Assembly (NCBI GenBank): GCA_001775715.1
Contig: MEYC01000098.1
Span: 4,122 to 37,384, forward strand
Origin: Candidatus Aminicenantes bacterium RBG_16_66_30
GTDB taxonomy: Bacteria; Acidobacteriota; Aminicenantia; Aminicenantales; Saccharicenantaceae
DNA length: 33,263 nucleotides
Direction of reading: 5' to 3'
The notes beneath the pieces are model-generated. The model was not told where the DNA came from. It saw only the letters and a list, made by a program, of their open reading frames with translations, and did not search any database. Both the position numbers and the translations under genes were made by a program. Shown piece after piece: positions 6,418 through 19,773 of this stretch (positions are counted from its first letter, which is position 1; every line of letters begins with the position of its first letter).

Positions 6418-7347
6418 ATGCTTGAGATCCGAAACCTGACTAAATCCTACGGCGACATCCTGGCCCTCGACCGGTTCTCCTTGGACCTCGGCAAGGGCGA
6501 GGTCCTGGGCCTGCTCGGCCCGAACGGGGCGGGCAAGACGACGCTCATCTCCATCCTGGCCGGGACCCTCGCCGACTTCAGCGGCACGGTCACGTTCCAA
6601 GGCCGGAACCTCTTCGCCGATCGTGCGCTCAAGAACCGCTTGGGCATCGTCCCCCAGGACATGGCCTTCTACGACGAGCTCAGCGCCATGGACAACCTGC
6701 TGTTCTGGGGCGGCCTCTATGACGTCCCCCGGGCCGAGCTGAAGCGGCGGGCCGCGGAGCTTCTCGAGCGCGTCGAGCTCGCCGGCCGGGCCAAGGAACC
6801 GGTCAAGAAGTTCTCGGGGGGCATGAAGCGCCGCCTCAACACGGCCATCGGCCTCCTCCACCACCCCGACCTCCTGCTCCTCGACGAGCCGACGGTCGGC
6901 ATCGACGTCCAGGCCAAGGTCAGCATCCTCGACATCATCCGTAACGCCGGCGCGTCCGGCACGGCGGTCATCTTCACGACCCACCAGCTGGCCGAGGTCG
7001 AGACGACCTGCTCCCGCATCGCCATCATGGACCACGGCCGCATCCTGGCCCAGGGGACGCTCGACGAGCTTGTCCGCATCGTCGGCGAGCGCGACATCGT
7101 CGAGATCACGGGCGAGTTCGCCGCGGGCCCGTTCTCCGAGGCCCTCCAGGACATCGCCGGCGACGGCATCGAGCTCCTGTCCGTGGCCGACAACCTGGCC
7201 TCGCTGGCCGTGGCCGCGACGGAGCAGATCCCCCGGATCATGGACCGGCTCTTCCGCCGGAAGCTCGCCGTGACCGATCTCAAGATCAAATCGCCCAACC
7301 TCGAGACCGTGTTCCTGAAGCTGACCGGCCGCAGCCTGAGGGATTGA
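6418..7347 (+). CDS. ABC transporter ATP-binding protein (ABC-2 exporter)
   Basis: Walker A GPNGAGKTT, signature FSGGMKRRL, Walker B LLLLDEPTVGID, H-loop TTHQ. Confidence 0.96.
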   Translation: MLEIRNLTKSYGDILALDRFSLDLGKGEVLGLLGPNGAGKTTLISILAGTLADFSGTVTFQGRNLFADRALKNRLGIVPQDMAFYDELSAMDNLLFWGGLYDVPRAELKRRAAELLERVELAGRAKEPVKKFSGGMKRRLNTAIGLLHHPDLLLLDEPTVGIDVQAKVSILDIIRNAGASGTAVIFTTHQLAEVETTCSRIAIMDHGRILAQGTLDELVRIVGERDIVEITGEFAAGPFSEALQDIAGDGIELLSVADNLASLAVAATEQIPRIMDRLFRRKLAVTDLKIKSPNLETVFLKLTGRSLRD

Positions 7348-7350
7348 CCC

Positions 7351-8595
7351 GTGCGCCGGCTGCTTCTCGTGCTCGCGAACGACGTCCGCCGCCATCTCAA
7401 GGCGCCGATGGCCATCCTGATCTTCATGGTCATCCCGCTGGGCATGACGGGCCTCATCGGCGTTATCTTCGCGCCCCAGACCGAAGGCAGCGAGCTCCCC
7501 CCCATTTCGGTCCTCCTCGTCGACAACGACAAGGGCCTGGCTTCGAAGCTCCTCGTCGGCGCGTTCGACGTCGACCAGATGAAGGAGATGTTCCAGGTGA
7601 CCGTGACCGACGAGGCCGACGGCCGGAAGCGGATGGGGCGCGGCAAGGCCTCGGCCATGGTCGTCATCCCCGAGGGCTTCACCCTTGACCTGCTGGACGC
7701 GAAGCCCGTGACCCTCCTCGTCGTCAAGAACCCGTCCGAGCAGTTCCTGCCCGATGTCGTCGAAGAGTTCATGAACACTATGGCGGTCATGCTGTCGGGC
7801 GTCGTCCAGGCGTTCGCCGAGGAGGTCCGGGGCATCCGGGCCATGCTCGACCGGCCCGTCGAGAGCTTCCCCTGGGATAAGCTCGGCCCGGAGTTCGGCA
7901 AGGCCCAGAAGAAGGTCGTCGCCGCCCGGACATACCTGGACCCCCTGATCCTCCGTCTGAAGGCGGAGGAGACCAAGGCTGCGGGGGCCCGGACGAGCTT
8001 CACCCAGGCGGACCTGTTCTCGGCCGTCCTCCCCGGCATGGCCGTCATGTTCCTGCTGTTCATCGTCCAGACGCTGATGCGCGACATCATCTCCGAGCGC
8101 GAGGACGGCAAGCTCCGGCGCATGCTGACGACGCCGCTCCGGCCGATCGAGCTCATCGGCGCCCGCATCGCCGGCGGCTGGGTCATGGGCATCGCCGTCC
8201 TCCTCGTCATGGTCGCGGCCGGCACCCTCATCTTCCGCGCGACCTGGGGCCCGCTCGGCGGGTTCCTCCTGCTCGGCGCCGTCGCCTCGTTCTGGGCGGC
8301 CGCCTTCTTCGCCCTCCTGCACGCCCTCGTCAGGAACCGGAACCAGTCCGGAGCGTTCAGCGCGCCGATCATCCTGGCCTTCAGCCTGTTCGGGGGCTCG
8401 ATGATGAACCTCGAGGCGATGCCGAAGGCCTTCCGGACGGTCGGGATCCTGACGCCCAACCGCTGGTTCATCGACGGCGCGGCCCTCCTCCGGGACGGCC
8501 GCTTCCCCTTCGTCCCGATCCTCATCTTGGCCGGGAGCGGCATCCTCCTCCTGGCCCTGGCCGTCCCGGCCCTGCGGCGGCGGACATCGGTGTGA
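7351..8595 (+). CDS. ABC-2 type permease
   Basis: GTG start 3 bp after the ATPase stop; N-terminal TM, large soluble loop, C-terminal TM cluster with MRDIISEREDGKLRRMLTTPL. Confidence 0.93.
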   Translation: MRRLLLVLANDVRRHLKAPMAILIFMVIPLGMTGLIGVIFAPQTEGSELPPISVLLVDNDKGLASKLLVGAFDVDQMKEMFQVTVTDEADGRKRMGRGKASAMVVIPEGFTLDLLDAKPVTLLVVKNPSEQFLPDVVEEFMNTMAVMLSGVVQAFAEEVRGIRAMLDRPVESFPWDKLGPEFGKAQKKVVAARTYLDPLILRLKAEETKAAGARTSFTQADLFSAVLPGMAVMFLLFIVQTLMRDIISEREDGKLRRMLTTPLRPIELIGARIAGGWVMGIAVLLVMVAAGTLIFRATWGPLGGFLLLGAVASFWAAAFFALLHALVRNRNQSGAFSAPIILAFSLFGGSMMNLEAMPKAFRTVGILTPNRWFIDGAALLRDGRFPFVPILILAGSGILLLALAVPALRRRTSV

Positions 8596-8597
8596 CC

Positions 8598-9731
8598 ATG
8601 AGACGCGCGAAACGGATCCTCCACGTGGCCGGGAACGACCTGCGGATCATGGTCGGCGACAAGGCCTTCTTCTTCTGGACCCTGGCCTTCCCGATCTTCT
8701 TCATCGTCATGTTCGGGCTCCTCTACAAGTCGGGGGAGAACGCCCCGGCCGTCGCCGAGCTGACCGTGGTCAACCTCGACGAGGGGCGGTGGGGCGGCTA
8801 TTTCGTCGAGAAGATCAAGGCCCCCAACCTGACGATCAAGACGGCCGACGCCGAGCCGGCCGAATACAGCCGCCTGCTCGTCCTGCCGGCCGACTTCTCG
8901 GCCCGGATCGAGGCCCGGCGCGACCAGGCCCTGGCCTTCAAGAAGCGCTCCGGCGCGTCGGTGAAGGCGGCCGCCCGGGTCGAGACCCGGCTCTATCAGT
9001 CGATCGCCCGGGTCATCAGCGAGCTCGTCCTCTACGGCGAGGGCGATCTCACCAAGTTCCTGGACGGACATCCCGAGTTCCGCGACATCGTCCGGGTCGA
9101 GAGCCGGTTCCCCGAAAAGACGGTCACCGTCGTCCCCAGCGGGTTCGACCACTCCATTCCCGGGACGACCATCCAGTTCATCATGATGATGGTCATCATC
9201 TACGGCGGCGTCACCGTGCTGGAGGACCGGAAGAAGGGGGTCCTGGCGCGGATGCTCTTCTCGCCGCTGTCGACGGCGGACGTCTTCCAGGCCAAGCTCC
9301 TGGGGCGGTGGTCGTTGGGCTTTCTCCAGGCGCTCATGCTCATCGTCGTCGGCAAGATCTTCTTCGGGCTGAATTTGGGCAGCCTGCCGCTCGCGCTCCT
9401 CGTCATCGCCGTCTTCGCTCTGGCCATGGCCGCGCTCAGCGTCTTCATCGGCTCGCTCTGCACGAAAGAGGACATGATCATCGGCCTGGCCGTGCTCCTC
9501 GCCAACATGTTCGCCGGCCTCGGGGGGTGCTGGTGGCCGAACGAGATCGTGCCTCCGGCCGTGCGCCGGGTGGCCATGATCTCGCCGGCCCACTGGGCCA
9601 TGGACGCGCTCCACAAGCTCCGGTTCTTCCAGGGCGGATTCGCCGATATCCTGCCGAACCTGGGGGTCCTCCTGGCGCTGTCCGTGGTCCTGGCGGTCGT
9701 CGCCGGGCGCGCGTTCAAGATCAGGGACTGA
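8598..9731 (+). CDS. ABC-2 type permease, second subunit
   Basis: Follows the first permease directly (GTG at 8592 overlaps the previous stop, ATG at 8598); VLEDRKKGVLARMLFSPLSTADVFQAKLLGRW motif plus TM cluster. Confidence 0.92.
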   Translation: MRRAKRILHVAGNDLRIMVGDKAFFFWTLAFPIFFIVMFGLLYKSGENAPAVAELTVVNLDEGRWGGYFVEKIKAPNLTIKTADAEPAEYSRLLVLPADFSARIEARRDQALAFKKRSGASVKAAARVETRLYQSIARVISELVLYGEGDLTKFLDGHPEFRDIVRVESRFPEKTVTVVPSGFDHSIPGTTIQFIMMMVIIYGGVTVLEDRKKGVLARMLFSPLSTADVFQAKLLGRWSLGFLQALMLIVVGKIFFGLNLGSLPLALLVIAVFALAMAALSVFIGSLCTKEDMIIGLAVLLANMFAGLGGCWWPNEIVPPAVRRVAMISPAHWAMDALHKLRFFQGGFADILPNLGVLLALSVVLAVVAGRAFKIRD

Positions 9732-9737
9732 CGCGGG

Positions 9738-11114
9738 TCAGAACTGCCGGGTGCCGCTGAGCGGCAGGACGATGCGGAAGGTCGTGCCCTTGTCGGGCTC
9801 GCTCTCGGCCTCGATCCCCCCGCCGTGCATCTTGGCCACGGAGAGGGCGATGGCCAGGCCCAGACCCGTGCCCCCGTCGGAGGCGGTCCGGGCCTTGTCC
9901 ACGCGGTAGAACCGGTCGAAGATGAACGGCATGTGTTCGGCCGCGATGCCGATCCCCGTGTCCGTGATGGACGCGACCGCGTGGCTGTCCCTCCGGGCGA
10001 GCGAGGCCGTTATCGCGCCGCCGTCCGGCGTGTAGCGGATGGCGTTGTCGAGGACGTTCAGGAACAGCTGCTTCAGTTTGACCCGGTCGCCCCGGACCTT
10101 GAGGTCGTCCATCGGGCCGAGGTCGAGCCGCAGGCCCTTGTCCTGGACGAGGAGCTCCATGTCCTGGGCCAGCTCGCCGATGAGGTCCTTGAGCCGGATG
10201 TCCTCGAAATCGACCGGCTCCGAACCCGAATCGCTCCTCGCGAGGAGGAGCATCTTGCCGACGACCTCGGACATGTAGGCGACTTCCTGGGACACGAGCT
10301 CGAGCGACCTCTGGTATTCGTCCTCGCTCCGGCTCTTCTCCAGGGCCAGGGAGGATTCGGCCTGGATGATGGCCAGCGGCGTCCGCAGCTCGTGGGAGGC
10401 GTCGGCCACGAACTGGCGCTCCTTCTTGAACGCGGCCTCGAGCCGTCCGATCATCCCGTTCAGCGTCGTGGCCAGCAGGCCCAGCTCGTCGTCCGTCTGG
10501 ACGTCGATGCGCCGGCTCAGGTCGCTTTCGCCGATCCCCCGGGCCGTCTCGGCGATCTGCTCGACCGGCCGGAGGGTCCGGTCCGTCAGGAATATCCCGC
10601 CGATGCCGGCCAGGATGACGACGAAGATGGACGAGTTCAGGATGACCATGCGGAAGATGGCCAGGACGCTGACAATCTCATTCGTCGTCCGCCCGACGAC
10701 GAGGGCGACGCGGGTCTGGGAATCGACGTTGAACGGCGCCGCGTAGAGCCGCACGTCCGGCCCCTCGGCCCGCCCGGCCGACTGGAACGCGCTCTTCCCA
10801 AAGAGGGCCTGCTCGACGGTCTTGTCGATGTTGGAGAACTGGACGTTGGGGCCGAGGCGCTGCATGAGGACGCCGTCCGCGTCATAGATCATGACGAGCT
10901 CGTTGACCTTCTCGTCGAACGTGAACTGGCGGCCGTCGTAAGTGATGGATCCCTGAAGCTCGATGAACCGCGTCCGGAGCGAGTCGTCGAGGTTCCGGTA
11001 GAGGTTCCGCGAGAGGAGGGTGTAGGCGAACGTGCCGAAGACGGCCAGCATGGCCACGATCGCCGCCAGATACCAGAGGGTCAGGCGGAACTTGATGCTC
11101 TTGAGGAACTTCAT
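9738..11114 (-). CDS. Sensor histidine kinase, heavy-metal-sensor-like architecture
   Basis: N-terminal [20 protein letters not shown], second [29 protein letters not shown]-box, N/G boxes [14 protein letters not shown] and [20 protein letters not shown]. Confidence 0.95.
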
Positions 11115-11782
11115 GGGACGCGCAGACGGTAGCCCGCTCCTCTCACGGTCTGGATCAGGCTGTCCTCGCCCTCCCGGTCGATCTTCTTGCGCAGGCGACG
11201 GACATAGACGTCGATGATGTTCGAGAGGCCGTCGAACTCGTAGTCCCAGACGTTCTCGCCGAGCATGGTCCGGGTGACCACGGCGTTGGGGCGGCGCATG
11301 AAGTATTCGAGGATGGCGTACTCCTTCGAGGTCAGCTCGACGCGCCGGCCGTCCCGCCAGACCTCCCGGCTCTGCGGGTCGAGCGTCATGTCCCCGACCT
11401 CGTACTTCTGGACCTTGGGCAGGATGTCGCGCCGGAGCAGGGCGCGCAGGCGCGCCAGAAGCTCGGCGAAGGCGAAGGGCTTGACGACGTAGTCGTCGGC
11501 GCCCGTGTCGAGCCCGGTCACCCTGTCCTCGACGCTGTCCTTGGCCGTGAGCATGAGAACGGGCGTGTTGACGCCCTTGGCCCGGAGGTCGCGGCAGACG
11601 GCGAGTCCGTCCTTCTTGGGCAGCATGATGTCCAGGACGATGAGGTCGAACGGCGTCGTCTCGGCCATGTACTGCGCTTCTTCTCCATCGTAGGCGCTGT
11701 CGACGGCGTACCCCTCTTCGAGAAGCCCTCTCTTGATGATGCCGGCCAGTCGCCTGGAATCTTCGACTACGAGGATCCTCAT
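11111..11782 (-). CDS. OmpR/PhoB-family response regulator
   Basis: [14 protein letters not shown]...[14 protein letters not shown]...[12 protein letters not shown]...[10 protein letters not shown] plus winged HTH; 4-bp overlap with the kinase gene. Confidence 0.96.
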
Positions 11783-11841
11783 CCGTTTCTCTCCCGAGAG
11801 TCGTGCGGTGACAGGCCTAGCATACCGCATTTCAGATGAAT

Positions 11842-11870
11842 ATATTATGAAAATAGAATGAAAACGTCAA
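11842..11870 (-). promoter_or_regulatory. Sigma70-type promoter for the TCS operon
   Basis: On the minus strand TTGACG (11870-11865), 17-bp spacer, TAATAT (11847-11842). Confidence 0.75.
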
Positions 11871-11878
11871 CCTCATTT

Positions 11879-11917
11879 TTAATCTAAAATTAATCTTCGT
11901 TTAACATTGGTTTCATC
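11879..11917. promoter_or_regulatory. Candidate response-regulator operator: 11-bp-phased direct repeats
   Basis: TTAATC 11879, TTAATC 11890, TTAACA 11901, TTCATC 11912, each exactly 11 bp apart, just upstream of the TCS -35. Confidence 0.65.
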
Positions 11918-11971
11918 TCCGGCTGATACTGTGACCTGGAACGGGCGAGATCGACGACCTTGGAGAAGACC

Positions 11972-12580
11972 ATGAATGCGATCCTGATGAAACACAACTC
12001 CCTGATGGAGCGGATCGTCAGGGAATACGGCGCCATGATCCGGGCCGCGGTCCAGAAGTCCCTCGGCTTGATGGCGCCCACGGAGGACCTCATCGCCGAG
12101 ATCCATTTCGCGGTCTTCATGACCCTGCGGAAGCTCGGCGAGGGCTGGACGCCGCCGCGGTCGTTCGTGTCCACGGTCGTCAGGAACAAGGTCAACGAGC
12201 TCCTATGGCAGAAGCACTGGGACACGGACGACATCAGCAGGATCAAGAAGCACCGGGCCGAGCAGACCCTCCGCCGGGAGGAGGCCATGGCCCACATCCA
12301 TACCCTCACCCCGGGCGAATTCAAGGTCTTCCGGCTGCTGGGGCTGGGCCTGACGAACCAGGAGGTCGCCGAGAGCCTCTTCATCTCCCCCCTGACCGTC
12401 AGGACCCACGTCAAGAGGATCCACTCCAAGTGCGGCATCCAGGGCCGGGCCAAGCTGGCCCTCGCGGCCTACCAGGCGTGCTATCGCGAGCACGCGGAGA
12501 GCCCCGATGCCGCCGGCCTGACCTCCCACGGCCCCGGCGGGTATCTCAAGCCGAACCTGCTCTCCGAACAGGCTAACTAG
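11972..12580 (+). CDS. Regulator combining an ECF sigma region-2-like N-terminus with a LuxR/GerE HTH
   Basis: PTEDLIAEIHFAVFMTLRKL...RSFVSTVVRNKVNELLWQKHW resembles sigma region 2; LTPGEFKVFRLLGLGLTNQEVAESLFISPLTVRTHVKRIHSKCGI is a LuxR-type HTH. ATG 11972 with SD GGAGAAG. Confidence 0.8.
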   Translation: MNAILMKHNSLMERIVREYGAMIRAAVQKSLGLMAPTEDLIAEIHFAVFMTLRKLGEGWTPPRSFVSTVVRNKVNELLWQKHWDTDDISRIKKHRAEQTLRREEAMAHIHTLTPGEFKVFRLLGLGLTNQEVAESLFISPLTVRTHVKRIHSKCGIQGRAKLALAAYQACYREHAESPDAAGLTSHGPGGYLKPNLLSEQAN

Positions 12581-14372: not shown

Positions 14373-15164
14373 CTATTCCCACAGATAGTAGCGCACGTAG
14401 TCGATGACGTACCGCAGCGGGAAGATGGCGTCGTCGATCCCTTGCTGGCCGCCCCAGTTGCCGCCGATGGCTGTATTGAGGAGCAGGTAGAACGGCCGGT
14501 CGAATCGCCAGTAATCGGGGTACCTGGAATCCTTCCGGTAGGTGAAATACTTCTCTCCGTCGACGATGAAATCCAGCCGGTCGGCGTGCCAATCGACCGC
14601 GTATACGTGGAAGTCCGAGAACGGATCGGCGATGTCGATGTGCCCGCCCCGATCGACCTTCCCGGGATCGTTGACGGAACCCGGCGTGTGGACGGTGGCG
14701 TAGATCATGTCCGGCTCGTAGCCGACGTTCTCCATGATGTCGATCTCGCCGCATTCCGGCCAACCCGCCTGGGGGATGTTCGTGCCCATCATCCAGATGG
14801 CCGGCCACGAGCCGCGACCCGTGGGGATCTTGGCCCGGACCTCGATCCGGCCCCGGAAGAACTCCCGTTTTCCCAGGGTGTTCACGCTGGCCGAGGTGTA
14901 ATGCGCCCCGGCGTATTCCTCTTTTCGGGACTCGATGACGAGATTGCCGCCCTCGACCCGGGCGTTCTCGAGGCGCCCCTCCGTGTAGTACTGGGCCTCC
15001 TGGTTCCGGATGAGGCCGACCTCGTAGCTCCACACCGCCGGATCGGGCGGCCCGTCGGCGCTGAACTCCTCCGCCCAGACGAGCACGGGCTCCGGCGGCT
15101 CCTCCGGCGCGGCGCACGACAGGGCCAGCGCGGCGGCCAGAAGGAGCGGGATGAAGGGCTTCAT
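14373..15164 (-). CDS. Glycoside hydrolase family 16 lipoprotein (laminarinase-like)
   Basis: Lipobox LLLAAALALSC; RIEVRAKIPTGRGSWPAIWMMGTN...GEIDIMENVGYEPDMIYATVHTPG contains the GH16 ExDxxE catalytic motif. Confidence 0.93.
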   Translation of the reverse strand: MKPFIPLLLAAALALSCAAPEEPPEPVLVWAEEFSADGPPDPAVWSYEVGLIRNQEAQYYTEGRLENARVEGGNLVIESRKEEYAGAHYTSASVNTLGKREFFRGRIEVRAKIPTGRGSWPAIWMMGTNIPQAGWPECGEIDIMENVGYEPDMIYATVHTPGSVNDPGKVDRGGHIDIADPFSDFHVYAVDWHADRLDFIVDGEKYFTYRKDSRYPDYWRFDRPFYLLLNTAIGGNWGGQQGIDDAIFPLRYVIDYVRYYLWE

Positions 15165-18100
15165 GGGACGGGCAGGGATCTCTTGACTTCGAAGTGCCAT
15201 TTCCAGACCTCATAGATCGCCGGGTAGACGATGAGCTCGAGGAGGAACGACGTGAAGATCCCCCCGATCATCGGCGCGGTGATGCGCTTCATGACGTCGG
15301 CGCCGGCTCCGATCGACCACATGATGGGAACGAGGCCGATGAAGGTCGTCGAGACGGACATGAACTTGGGGCGCAGGCGCTTGACCGCGCCGTAGCGGAT
15401 GGCGTCCTGGAGGTCGGCCAGGCCGCGCATCCGGCCCTCGGACTTGGCCTGCTCGTAGGCCAGGTCGAGATAGAGGAGCATGAAGATGCCCGTCTCGGCG
15501 TCGACGCCGAGCAGGGCGATGAGCCCCACCCAGACGCCGATGCTCATGTTGTAGCCGAGGGCGTAGAGAAGCCAGAAAGCGCCCACGGCCGAAAAGGGCA
15601 CGGCCAGGAGCACGATCGCCGTCTTCGCGAGCGACCGCGTGTTGAGATAGAGCAGGAGGAAGATCAGGAGGAGGGTCACCGGCAGGACCACGGCGAGCCG
15701 TTTCCTGACCCGCTGCATGACCTCGTACTGCCCGCTCCACGCCAGGGAATGCCCGGCCGGCAGGCGGACGCTCTGGCGGATGACCTTGTCCGCCTCGCGG
15801 GTATAGTCGCCCTGGTCGACCCCGGTGATGTCGATATAGACATAGCCCGTGAGCAGGCCGTTCTCGTTGCGGATCATGGACGGGCCCGAGGCCAGCTTGA
15901 TCGTCGCCAGCTGGGAGAGCGGGATCTGCCGGTCCCCGCCGGCCGCCACCAGGACCCGCCCGAGCGCGTCGAGGTCGGCCCGGAAATCCCGCATGTACCG
16001 GATGTTGACCGGGTAGCGCTCCCGCCCCTCGATCGTGGTCGTGATGTTCTCCCCGCCGATGGCCCGCTGGATGACCTCCTGGACCGCGGCGATGCTCAGG
16101 CCGTAGCGGGACAGGGCCTCCCGGTTGCACTCGATGTCCAGGAAGTAGCCGCTCGCGGTCTTCTCGGCGAAGACGCTACGGGTCCCCTCGACCTGGTTGA
16201 GCGCGGCCTCGACCTGGGCGCCGATCTCCTCGATGGTGTCGAGGTCCGAGCCGGAGATCTTGAGGCCGACGGGGGTCCGCAGGCCGGTGCTCAGCATCTC
16301 GATGCGGCCGCGGATGGGCATGGTCCAGGAATTGGCCAGACCCGGCAGGGCCAGGGCCTCGTCCATCAGATTGATCAGGTCCTCCTGGGAGATGTTGTCG
16401 GGCGTGAAGTGCCGGAAAACAGATTTGGCCCAGCCCGGGGCCCAGGAGGAATACCATGTCGGCACTTTCCGCCACTCGCTCTTGGGCTTCAGGGTGATGA
16501 CCGTCTCGAGCATCGAGAGGGGGGCGGGATCGGTCGACGTGTCGGCCCGGCCGGCCTTGCCCAGGACCCGGTCGACCTCTGGGAATTCCCGGATGATCCG
16601 GTCGGTCACCTGGAGGATCTTCTGGGCTTCTGTGATCGAGATCCCCGGCATGGTCGTGGGCATGTAGAGGAGCGATCCCTCCTCGAGCGGGGGCATGAAC
16701 TCCGAGCCGATCTCGAGGAAGACGGGGACCGTCGCCGCGACCAGCACGAGCGCGGCGCCGATGACCAGCCATTTCTTCCTCAGCGTCCAGCGGACGACGG
16801 GATCGTAGATCCTCATCAGGAAGCGGCTGACCGGATGGCTGTCCTCGTTCCGGATCTTGCCGACGAGGACCGCGTTGGCCGTCCGGCTGAGCCAGCGCGG
16901 CCGGAAATCGAAGTTCCTCGCGTGCATGAACAGGACGCGCAGGGCGGGATCGAGGGTGATGACCAGGATCGCGGCGATGATCATCGACAGGTTCTTGGTG
17001 TAGGCCAGCGGCTTGAACAGGCGGCCTTCCTGGGCCTCGAGGGTCAGCACCGGGAGGAAGGACACGGCGATGACGAGGAGGGCGAAGAAGCTCGGCCGCG
17101 CGACCTGCTTGACGGCGCCGATCACGACCGCCCGGTCGTCGCCGGGGCGGCCCGCCTTATGCCACTGCTCGAGCTTCTTGTGCGTCTGCTCGACGACGAC
17201 CACCGCCGCGTCGTCGAGGGCGCCGATGGCGATGGCCAGGCCGCCGAGGGACATGATGTTGGCGGTGATGCCGAGCATGCGGAAGGGGATGAACGAGAGC
17301 AGGACCGCCACGGGGATGGTGATGACCGGGATGAGGGCGCTGGGGATGTGCCAGAGGAACAGGAAGATCATCAGGCTGACGGTCACGAGGATCTGGAGGA
17401 GCGTCGACTTGAGATTGCCGATGGCCCGGTGGATGAGATCGGAGCGGTCGTAGACGGGAACGACCTTGACGCCGGGGGGCAGTCCGGGCTCGACCTCTTT
17501 GAGCTTGGCTTTGACGCGATCGATGACCTTGAGGGCGTTCTGGCCCTGCCGCATGACCACGATAGCCGAGACGGCCTCGCCCTGGCCGTCGAGCTCGGCG
17601 ACGCCGCGGCGGATATCGGGCCCGAGAACGACCTGCCCGAGGTCCTTGATCCGGATCGGCGTGCCGCTCGGACTGGCCGAAACGACGATGTCCTCGAAAT
17701 CCTTCGTCGATTTCGCGTAGCCCCGGCCGCGGACCATGTATTCGGTCCCGCCGAACTCGACCAGGCGGCCGCCGACCTCGGCGTTCCCCTGGCGCACGGC
17801 CTCGGTCACCTGGCTGATCGTGATGCCGTAGGCCTGGAGGCGGTTGGGATCGAGGTTGACCTGGTACTGGTTCCCGAAGCCGCCCACGGCCGCCACCTCG
17901 GCGACGCCGGGCACGGACTTGAGATGGTACCTCAGATACCAGTCCTGCACGGACCGGAGCTCGGCCAGGTTGTAGCTGCGGGACTCGTCAATGAGCGCGT
18001 ACTGATAGATCCAGCCGAGGCCGGTCGCGTCGGGCCCGAGCTCGGTCTTGGCCCCTTCGGGGAGCTGGGAGAGCACGGGCGAAAGGTACTCCAGGGTCCG

Positions 18101-18421
18101 GGAGCGGGCCCAATAGATGTCGGTGCCCTCCTCGAAGATGACGTAGACGTAGGAATAGCCGAAGTCCGAGAAGCCGCGGACCGACTGGACGCGGGGCGTC
18201 CCGAGCATGGCCGAGACGATCGGATAGGTCAGCTGGTCCTCGACGATGTCGGGGCTCCGGTCCCAGCGCGAGAAGATGATGACCTGAGTGTCGCTCAGGT
18301 CGGGGATGGCGTCGAGGGACAGGTTCTGGATGGACCAGACGCCGGCCAGGCAGGCGGCGGCCACGGCGGCGATGACCAGGACCTTGTTGTTGACCGAGAA
18401 GTCGATGATGCGGTCGATCAT
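15161..18421 (-). CDS. Heavy-metal-efflux RND permease (CusA/CzcA family)
   Basis: 1086 aa; MIDRIIDFSVNNKVLVIAAV..., RSVRGFSDFGYSYVYVIFEEGTDIYWARSR, GALDDAAVVVVEQTHKKLE, IRGRIEMLSTGLRTPVGLKISG typical of HME-RND. Confidence 0.96.
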   Translation of the reverse strand: MIDRIIDFSVNNKVLVIAAVAAACLAGVWSIQNLSLDAIPDLSDTQVIIFSRWDRSPDIVEDQLTYPIVSAMLGTPRVQSVRGFSDFGYSYVYVIFEEGTDIYWARSRTLEYLSPVLSQLPEGAKTELGPDATGLGWIYQYALIDESRSYNLAELRSVQDWYLRYHLKSVPGVAEVAAVGGFGNQYQVNLDPNRLQAYGITISQVTEAVRQGNAEVGGRLVEFGGTEYMVRGRGYAKSTKDFEDIVVSASPSGTPIRIKDLGQVVLGPDIRRGVAELDGQGEAVSAIVVMRQGQNALKVIDRVKAKLKEVEPGLPPGVKVVPVYDRSDLIHRAIGNLKSTLLQILVTVSLMIFLFLWHIPSALIPVITIPVAVLLSFIPFRMLGITANIMSLGGLAIAIGALDDAAVVVVEQTHKKLEQWHKAGRPGDDRAVVIGAVKQVARPSFFALLVIAVSFLPVLTLEAQEGRLFKPLAYTKNLSMIIAAILVITLDPALRVLFMHARNFDFRPRWLSRTANAVLVGKIRNEDSHPVSRFLMRIYDPVVRWTLRKKWLVIGAALVLVAATVPVFLEIGSEFMPPLEEGSLLYMPTTMPGISITEAQKILQVTDRIIREFPEVDRVLGKAGRADTSTDPAPLSMLETVITLKPKSEWRKVPTWYSSWAPGWAKSVFRHFTPDNISQEDLINLMDEALALPGLANSWTMPIRGRIEMLSTGLRTPVGLKISGSDLDTIEEIGAQVEAALNQVEGTRSVFAEKTASGYFLDIECNREALSRYGLSIAAVQEVIQRAIGGENITTTIEGRERYPVNIRYMRDFRADLDALGRVLVAAGGDRQIPLSQLATIKLASGPSMIRNENGLLTGYVYIDITGVDQGDYTREADKVIRQSVRLPAGHSLAWSGQYEVMQRVRKRLAVVLPVTLLLIFLLLYLNTRSLAKTAIVLLAVPFSAVGAFWLLYALGYNMSIGVWVGLIALLGVDAETGIFMLLYLDLAYEQAKSEGRMRGLADLQDAIRYGAVKRLRPKFMSVSTTFIGLVPIMWSIGAGADVMKRITAPMIGGIFTSFLLELIVYPAIYEVWKWHFEVKRSLPVP

Positions 18422-19773
18422 TTTTCGGGCGTCACGGCGGCGGCGTCCTTGCCGGCGTATCTTTGCGGTTCTTTATCGAACCGCTCCCGGCACTCGACCG
18501 AGCAGAAATAATAGGTCTTTCCCTGATAGACGCTTTTTCGTCCGTCCTCCTCGGCCTTCTTGACGGAGACCGGGGTGCCGCACACCGGGTCCTCGGCCAA
18601 GCCTCCGGTCATCCCGGCGGCGGCCAGCTCCATCCGGCTCTCGGAGTCGATCAGGAACGTGCCCGAGACGACGATACGCTCGCCCGGAGAAAGGCCCTTG
18701 ACGATCTCGACCGTATTGCCGAGACGCCGCCCGGTCTCGACCTCCCGGGGCTCGAAGAACCCGCCGCCCCGGTCGACGAAGACCGTTCTCTTGAGCCCGG
18801 TATCCAGGACGGCGTCGGTAGGCACGGACAGGGTGGCTTCGAGCGTGACGGGCAGCTCGACGTCGACGAACATGTCCGGCCTCAGAACATAGCCCGGGTT
18901 ATCGGCTTCGAGCCGGACCTTCATCGTCCGGCTCTCGGGATCGAAGAGGGGCAGGACGTCGCTGACCACGGCCTCGAAGCTGGCGTTGCGTCCGGCCAGC
19001 GCGACCCTGGGTCTGGCGCCCGGCTTGAGATATTGGGTCTCGTTCTCGTAGACGTCGAGGAGGATCCAGACGCGGCGAAGATCGGCGATCCTGAAGAACT
19101 CCGTCCCCTGGACGAACTTGAGCCCGAGGAAGATGTTCCGGGCGATGACGATGCCGGTGGCCGGCGAGCGCATCTCGATCTGCTGGACCCGCTCCTTGGT
19201 CTTGGCGATCGCGTCCATCTGGATGTCGCTCATGCCCAGATTGTGGAGGGCGTCCCGGGCCTGCTGGACGCTGACCTCGACGGAGGTGAGCTGGGAGGGC
19301 AGGGCCGTCCCTTCGCTCTTCAGCCGGTCGAGGGTGTTGAGGCTGTAGACGTAGGACTGCTGGGCGCCGAGGACCTCGGGGGCGTAGAAGGCGGCCAGGA
19401 CCTCGTCCTTCTTGACCAGCGCGCCCGGGGTCACGTCCGAGATCCCCATGACCCAGCCGGCGGTCGCGGCATTGATGACGTAGAGGGCGGTCTCGTCTGC
19501 GGCCACCCTGCCGAGGACCCGAAGGGTATGGGTCACGGGCTCCTTCCGGGCTTCGGCGATGCGGATGCCGGCCAGCTGGCGCTTTTCGGGGCCGACGCTC
19601 ACCGTGCCAGGGGCGAAATCGCTCTCGTCCACGGCGGCCGCGGCCGGGGCGGCTGCCGCCCCGACGTTGGGAAACCCGGGGTCCGGGGACCCGCGCCGGC
19701 TCAGCATCATGCCGAGCACGAAAGCACCGACGAGGAGGACCGCGACCAGGATGATCGTCCAGAGTTTCTTCAC
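18418..19773 (-). CDS. RND periplasmic adaptor (CusB-like) with C-terminal YHS/TRASH-type metal-binding domain
   Basis: Adaptor body VSVGPEKRQLAGIRIAEARKEPVTHTLRVLGRV...GERIVVSGTFLIDSESRMELA, then DPVCGTPVSVKKAEEDGRKSVYQGKTYYFCSVECRERFDKEPQRY; 4-bp overlap with the permease. Confidence 0.93.
   Translation of the reverse strand: MKKLWTIILVAVLLVGAFVLGMMLSRRGSPDPGFPNVGAAAAPAAAAVDESDFAPGTVSVGPEKRQLAGIRIAEARKEPVTHTLRVLGRVAADETALYVINAATAGWVMGISDVTPGALVKKDEVLAAFYAPEVLGAQQSYVYSLNTLDRLKSEGTALPSQLTSVEVSVQQARDALHNLGMSDIQMDAIAKTKERVQQIEMRSPATGIVIARNIFLGLKFVQGTEFFRIADLRRVWILLDVYENETQYLKPGARPRVALAGRNASFEAVVSDVLPLFDPESRTMKVRLEADNPGYVLRPDMFVDVELPVTLEATLSVPTDAVLDTGLKRTVFVDRGGGFFEPREVETGRRLGNTVEIVKGLSPGERIVVSGTFLIDSESRMELAAAGMTGGLAEDPVCGTPVSVKKAEEDGRKSVYQGKTYYFCSVECRERFDKEPQRYAGKDAAAVTPEK

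Follow-up and report, generated by a model that had tools for sequence, protein, structure and literature searches.

Two opposed 11-bp half-site arrays as a predicted bidirectional operator between a two-component system and a divergent sigma/LuxR hybrid gene in an Aminicenantes bacterium

In a stretch of 33,263 nucleotides from Candidatus Aminicenantes bacterium RBG_16_66_30 (contig MEYC01000098.1, positions 4,122 to 37,384; hereafter the window), a two-component system (TCS) operon and a gene for a sigma-like regulator diverge from an intergenic region in which short words recur every 11 bp. This locus raises the question of whether the repeats serve as an operator, which protein would bind them, and in which direction each of the two genes would be regulated. 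In the initial annotation, four of the repeats were read as a helically phased OmpR-family direct-repeat operator common to the TCS and the divergent gene, with autoactivation of the former and reciprocal repression of the latter. The features concerned are as follows, in window coordinates.

9738..11114, minus strand: HAMP sensor histidine kinase, 458 aa, in the response-regulator operon
11111..11782, minus strand: 223-aa response regulator combining a receiver with an OmpR/PhoB winged helix, starting at the ATG of 11782
11819..11824, minus strand: candidate regulator-dependent TCS -10 (P2), TATGCT, located 16 nt past the 5' end of the last minus half-site
11835..11862, minus strand: minus array, three tandem half-sites at 11-bp pitch, oriented towards the response-regulator gene
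11842..11870, minus strand: candidate basal TCS promoter (P1), TTGACG-N17-TAATAT, overlapped by the minus array
11879..11917, plus strand: plus array of four half-sites in tandem, oriented towards the hybrid gene, near-invariant in eight genomes
11924..11932, plus strand: extended -10 of the hybrid gene, TGATACTGT (TGnTAnnnT), conserved columns
11972..12580, plus strand: 202-aa hybrid regulator with sigma-70 region 2 at the N-terminus and a LuxR/GerE-type HTH at the C-terminus

The start of the response regulator at 11782 is backed by a GGAG conserved in 7/8 genomes. An ATG at 11830, which would give a 239-aa reading, was rejected as the start, given that the stretch upstream is not conserved and the GGAG before 11782 is. 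Against the heavy-metal CusR/CzcR/CopR model (TIGR01387) the regulator scores 256.1 bits, under the cut-off of 279.2, and the sensor kinase scores 277.6 bits against the curated heavy-metal subfamily (cut-off 292.6). The regulator also falls below the cut-offs for PhoB (TIGR02154; 217 vs. 296.2 bits) and PmrA (NF007928; 205 vs. 330 bits). The description of the divergent gene as a sigma/LuxR hybrid was borne out by profile matches to both domains. The LuxR/GerE HTH is present in all nine hybrid homologues scanned and sigma-70 region 2 (PF04542) in eight of them (best E 4.9e-13), with a weak match, below cut-off, in the window's own hybrid (E 0.027). Sigma region 4 was not recovered in the hybrid, where Sigma70_r4_2 reaches 22 bits (under its cut-off) vs. 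46 bits for the GerE/LuxR HTH. The predicted structure is helical at its N-terminus and contains an HTH (mean pLDDT 71.6); by fold it matches NarL-type HTH domains and, less closely, ECF sigma factors. Since Foldseek returned no match to this model with E below 0.001, the domain assignment rests on the profile matches, by which "sigma/LuxR hybrid" is a fair label for the 202-aa product. The same organization, with a LuxR/GerE HTH replacing region 4 behind sigma-70 region 2, is seen at 11972-12580 of the window and in the homologues L034-L043; among 94 genomes from the order it is confined to one genus and G050, apart from the distant outlier in G011.

All four repeats of the initial annotation are present on the plus strand, where TTAATC (11879), TTAATC (11890), TTAACA (11901), and TTCATC (11912) follow one another in exact 11-bp steps and share the word TTMAY. 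The minus strand carries three more, TTCATT (11862-11857), TTCATA (11851-11846), and TTCATC (11840-11835), again in exact 11-bp steps. The overall layout is that of two opposed direct-repeat arrays (<<< >>>>), with seven half-sites between the TCS operon and the hybrid gene. This regularity is beyond chance: the four-unit chain at 11 bp was reached in 0/20,000 dinucleotide-preserving shuffles of segment 11830-11935, and the five 11-bp pairs likewise in 0/20,000. The self-identity of the segment peaks at lag 11 (46/95), with lag 6 as the runner-up (44/100). A three-unit TTMAYM search allowing at most two mismatches finds 4 matches in the window vs. 0.06 expected, and the 11-bp TTMAY pairs of the whole 33-kb window number five, all at the intergenic arrays.

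Conservation was assessed in the window and seven further genomes (G001, G002, G003, G006, G009, G012, and G050), which are related and do not represent independent events. The eight intergenic regions align without gaps across 132 bp, and all seven half-sites persist as a gapless block in each of the seven relatives, G050 differing at single bases. Mean information is 1.90 bits in half-site columns, 1.07 in the spacers within the arrays, and 0.85 in the flanks; this difference was unmatched in 100,000 permutations and is maximal at zero shift. The third plus half-site varies at its third and last base. Within each genome, exact three-unit arrays are almost confined to this intergenic locus. 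The 11-bp phasing, whose loss in orthologous regions had been named as a finding that would speak against an operator, is kept in all orthologues aligned. An operator of the OmpR/PhoB class is recognized by at least two same-orientation half-sites at 10-11 bp pitch, an adjacent or known regulator of that type that binds them, and conserved phasing. The locus has four and three half-sites at exactly 11 bp, a neighboring Response_reg plus Trans_reg_C protein, and gapless phasing in orthologues from eight genomes in two families of one order. As far as sequence can indicate, the arrays are most likely a candidate OmpR/PhoB-type tandem direct-repeat operator, with binding predicted.

The arrays belong to a narrowly distributed gene pair. 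Among 60 relatives, a close response regulator (78-92% identity) was found in the seven genomes named above, of which six are of the same genus and G050 is of another family of the order, and the hybrid gene is divergent from the regulator in every one. Across the order (94 genomes), the hybrid is confined to the genomes with a close regulator, to G007, and to G011, where it is an outlier of 33% identity; 396 genomes sampled from the phylum yielded no further hybrid. G007 is the sole genome with the hybrid and no regulator seen, and its contig ends inside the intergenic region. The distant homologue in G011 stands without the regulator and has no array upstream. In the draft genome G001 (L208, contig C478), the kinase gene lies in two pieces separated by a frame break (1266-2475) and the hybrid match contains a TAG (6-407), either of which may reflect sequencing error or decay.

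The position of each array relative to promoter elements bears on the sign of regulation. In the extended -10 of the hybrid gene, the TA (11927-11928) and the final T (11932) are invariant in 8/8 genomes and the TG (11924-11925) is kept in 7/8; no -35 is conserved for this promoter. The TTAACA-N18-GATACT promoter proposed for this gene by the initial annotation can be read on the plus strand (11901-11930), but it is not preserved in that form, with T, C, or A in column 11930. On the minus strand, the TTGACG-N17-TAATAT candidate promoter (P1; 11870-11842) lies where it had been placed and is conserved, with TTG in register in 7/8 genomes and two invariant -10 T positions; the minus array that covers it had gone unseen. 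Past the minus array, the P2 hexamer matches TATAAT at 4-5 of 6 positions; counted from where the last minus half-site begins, it lies at +15/+16 in 7/8 genomes and is degenerate or absent in G050. Counted from the A of TTCA, a convention that depends on how half-sites are aligned between regulators, the last plus half-site stands 11 nt before the extended -10 in 8/8 genomes, and the minus array stands 12 nt before P2, within 1 nt in 7/8. For PhoP boxes, direct orientation at 11-12 nt from the -10 with overlap of the -35 is predicted or shown to be class II activating, and activity is abolished when the boxes are reversed (PMC3335776). The geometry here is that of PhoP architectures I and II, in direct orientation, about 11-12 nt before a -10 and with no good -35, and activation is predicted from it.

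It is on balance probable that the intergenic region serves as an operator in both directions, through which the response regulator would activate the hybrid gene and, via P2, the TCS operon, while occluding P1. The phosphorylated regulator would bind as head-to-tail dimers on TTMAY-N6 half-sites in both opposed arrays. On the four half-sites of the plus array it would be placed for class II activation of the hybrid gene, a prediction made because the last of these half-sites sits where PhoP-type boxes give class II activation. On the three half-sites of the minus array it would be placed to activate the TCS operon from P2, and the same occupancy would cover the spacer, -10, and start of P1, switching transcription from P1 to P2. 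We infer the identity of the binder, the sign of regulation, and this switch from the arrangement of the region. More tentatively, the two arrays may constitute one switch, by which the phosphorylated regulator would close a basal sigma-70 promoter and simultaneously open a pair of divergent class II promoters, in a locally confined circuit that signals to a sigma-like protein whose LuxR-type HTH replaces the -35-recognizing region 4.

Other assignments of sign have been considered. In the scheme of the initial annotation, the TCS is autoactivated from TTGACG-N17-TAATAT through the upstream plus array, and the hybrid gene is repressed by covering its -35, TTAACA. The plus array does lie directly upstream of P1 and does overlap the proposed -35; however, it is reversed relative to P1, and because three minus half-sites cover the spacer, -10, and start, autoactivation from P1 is unlikely. 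If the TCS is autoactivated, this should occur through the -10 at 11824-11819. The repression half of the scheme is likewise disfavored, given that the plus array lies in class II register before the conserved extended -10, which predicts activation, and that GATACT is not a conserved element. The scheme as a whole is improbable. A negative-feedback arrangement is possible though rather doubtful: the regulator would activate the hybrid gene via the plus array and repress its own operon, with the minus array occluding P1 and P2 being no promoter. P1, with its conserved -35 TTG and -10 at 17-bp spacing beneath the minus half-sites, is consistent with this arrangement, as is AfsQ1, which activates the divergent sigQ and leaves its own operon unactivated (PMC6988585). 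Activation from P2 is instead favored by the recurrence of a -10-like hexamer at +15/+16 in 7/8 genomes and by similar geometry at paralogue promoters. Since P1 is conserved, the main TCS start could be P1, in which case the minus array would be purely repressive.

The identity of the binder is suggested by gene order and by the paralogues. OmpR-type winged-helix genes are few per genome (three each in G000, G002, G003, and G006), and a close orthologue of the focal regulator adjoins the array in 8/8 genomes. Upstream of their own genes, paralogous regulators (45-57% identity) carry seven 11-bp pairs at 5 of 22 loci vs. 0.31 expected, a signal reached in 0/100 dinucleotide shuffles and with no other spacing as enriched; at three of these loci the repeats precede a CATAAT -10. 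In 80 more distant regulators the signal was not significant (3 pairs vs. 0.86; 8/100 shuffles), and 11-bp repeats are therefore not claimed family-wide. A genome-wide search for two half-sites plus a -10 gave few additional sites, the clearest at a porin gene near a PhoB-like regulator. There, a four-unit 11-bp array (TTAACN/TTGTCN/TTAATC/TTAAYN) lies just upstream of a -10 (TATCAT, TATTTT, or TATATT) before a Porin_O_P-like gene (L176:1479-1532, L200:980-1033, and L189:1479-1532; also G003:C2:152853 and G012:C293:2387). This gene is about 7 kb from the PhoB-like regulator gene in G002, G003, G005, and G009, and its array looks like a Pho box of the lineage. Because a porin gene linked to the PhoB-like regulator has a four-unit array of its own, the half-site word does not by itself name the binder.

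The porin array gives some weight to the idea that a different protein occupies the focal arrays, be it the hybrid or another regulator of OmpR type, for instance the PhoB-like one. No close copy of the PhoB-like regulator was seen in G006 or G050, however, where the focal arrays are intact, and the arrays track the regulator-hybrid pair, being absent beside the G011 homologue. The hybrid is a poor candidate for the further reason that LuxR-type HTH proteins usually bind inverted repeats rather than 11-bp direct repeats. A different binder is accordingly quite unlikely. At 29% GC in a window of 65% GC, segment 11830-11935 also invites the view that it is simply AT-rich promoter DNA, its periodicity due to chance or to UP-element function or curvature, with no cognate protein. 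Such an origin is very improbable in light of the shuffles, which drew on the same AT-rich sequence, and of conservation concentrated in the half-sites rather than in general A/T content. The adjacent response regulator is the best candidate binder, as judged from these sequence comparisons. Similar arrays were also observed elsewhere. An exact three-unit 11-bp TTAAY array (L202:1490-1533; G006:C49:44667-44710) lies downstream of paralogous regulator and kinase genes, ahead of a gene whose small product is lipoprotein-like. Between the gene for a Limisphaerales regulator of 50% identity and a divergent gene encoding a secreted protein, 11-bp TTAAY pairs occur on both strands (L073:3392-3500), and L026 has opposed TTCAT pairs; opposed arrays may thus recur at other loci.

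The surroundings of the locus include two transport systems. A DrrA-like ABC ATPase and two ABC-2 permeases (6418-9731) are convergent with the kinase gene, and these exporter genes are syntenic in G001, G002, G003, G006, and G012 (5/7 other genomes); they were not found in the G009 stretch examined, and the G050 contig ends before the position. The exporter is a likely output or partner of the TCS, but its promoter carries no half-site array. A CusA/CzcA-type RND pump with a CusB-like partner bearing a YHS domain lies at 15161-19773, and no such pump was found in the examined stretches around orthologous loci. At neither the ABC exporter nor the CzcA genes of the window was a half-site array pair detected.

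The region amounts to an evolutionarily supported predicted operator for an uncharacterized TCS, with half-site coordinates precise enough for testing and with the sigma2-LuxR hybrid as the most likely direct target of the TCS. Several known systems share parts of its design. The PmrA/BasR box consists of head-to-tail half-sites, CTTAAG and XTTAAT, 5 bp apart (PMC3973317); the 11-bp pitch is the same, and TTTAAT-N5-ATTAAT here fits XTTAAT-N5-XTTAAT. In contrast to that single two-half-site box, four and three opposed half-sites are found here, several of them TTCAT, and the regulator is no PmrA by the curated model. In Streptomyces, PhoP binds 11-nt repeat units with a GTTCACC core at phoU-phoRP, a bidirectional region between an autoactivated TCS operon and a divergent gene (PMC6283541). 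Those units run in one direction, towards phoU, whereas each direction has its own array here and the divergent gene is sigma-like. The regulator and kinase are closest to the curated CusR/CopR/AgrR family, just below its cut-offs. Positive autoregulation occurs in this family and AgrR sites can include extra in-phase direct repeats, but the core box of such heavy-metal regulators is an inverted 6-4-6 repeat (PMC7380067); none is present in the intergenic region, which shows direct repeats in a wide opposed arrangement. Salmonella PhoP architectures I and II resemble the locus in their direct boxes 11-12 nt upstream of the -10 with an optional further upstream box (PMC3335776), and differ in their GTTTA half-sites and in lacking two opposed arrays for two genes. 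In the AfsQ1/Q2-sigQ system of Streptomyces, as here, the response-regulator gene is divergent from a sigma gene, which AfsQ1 activates from the shared region, as is predicted for the hybrid; AfsQ1 recognizes a GlnR-like site and has no control over the operon that encodes it, and SigQ is a sigma factor rather than a sigma2-LuxR hybrid (PMC6988585). The locus is of a familiar kind, to which OmpR/PhoB tandem boxes and divergently placed regulator and sigma genes (AfsQ1-sigQ, for example) also belong. What sets it apart is the opposition of its arrays and the hybrid nature of the target, and the layout offers a compact natural case in which a single regulator would be positioned to drive a class II promoter in each direction and at the same time to cover a basal promoter.
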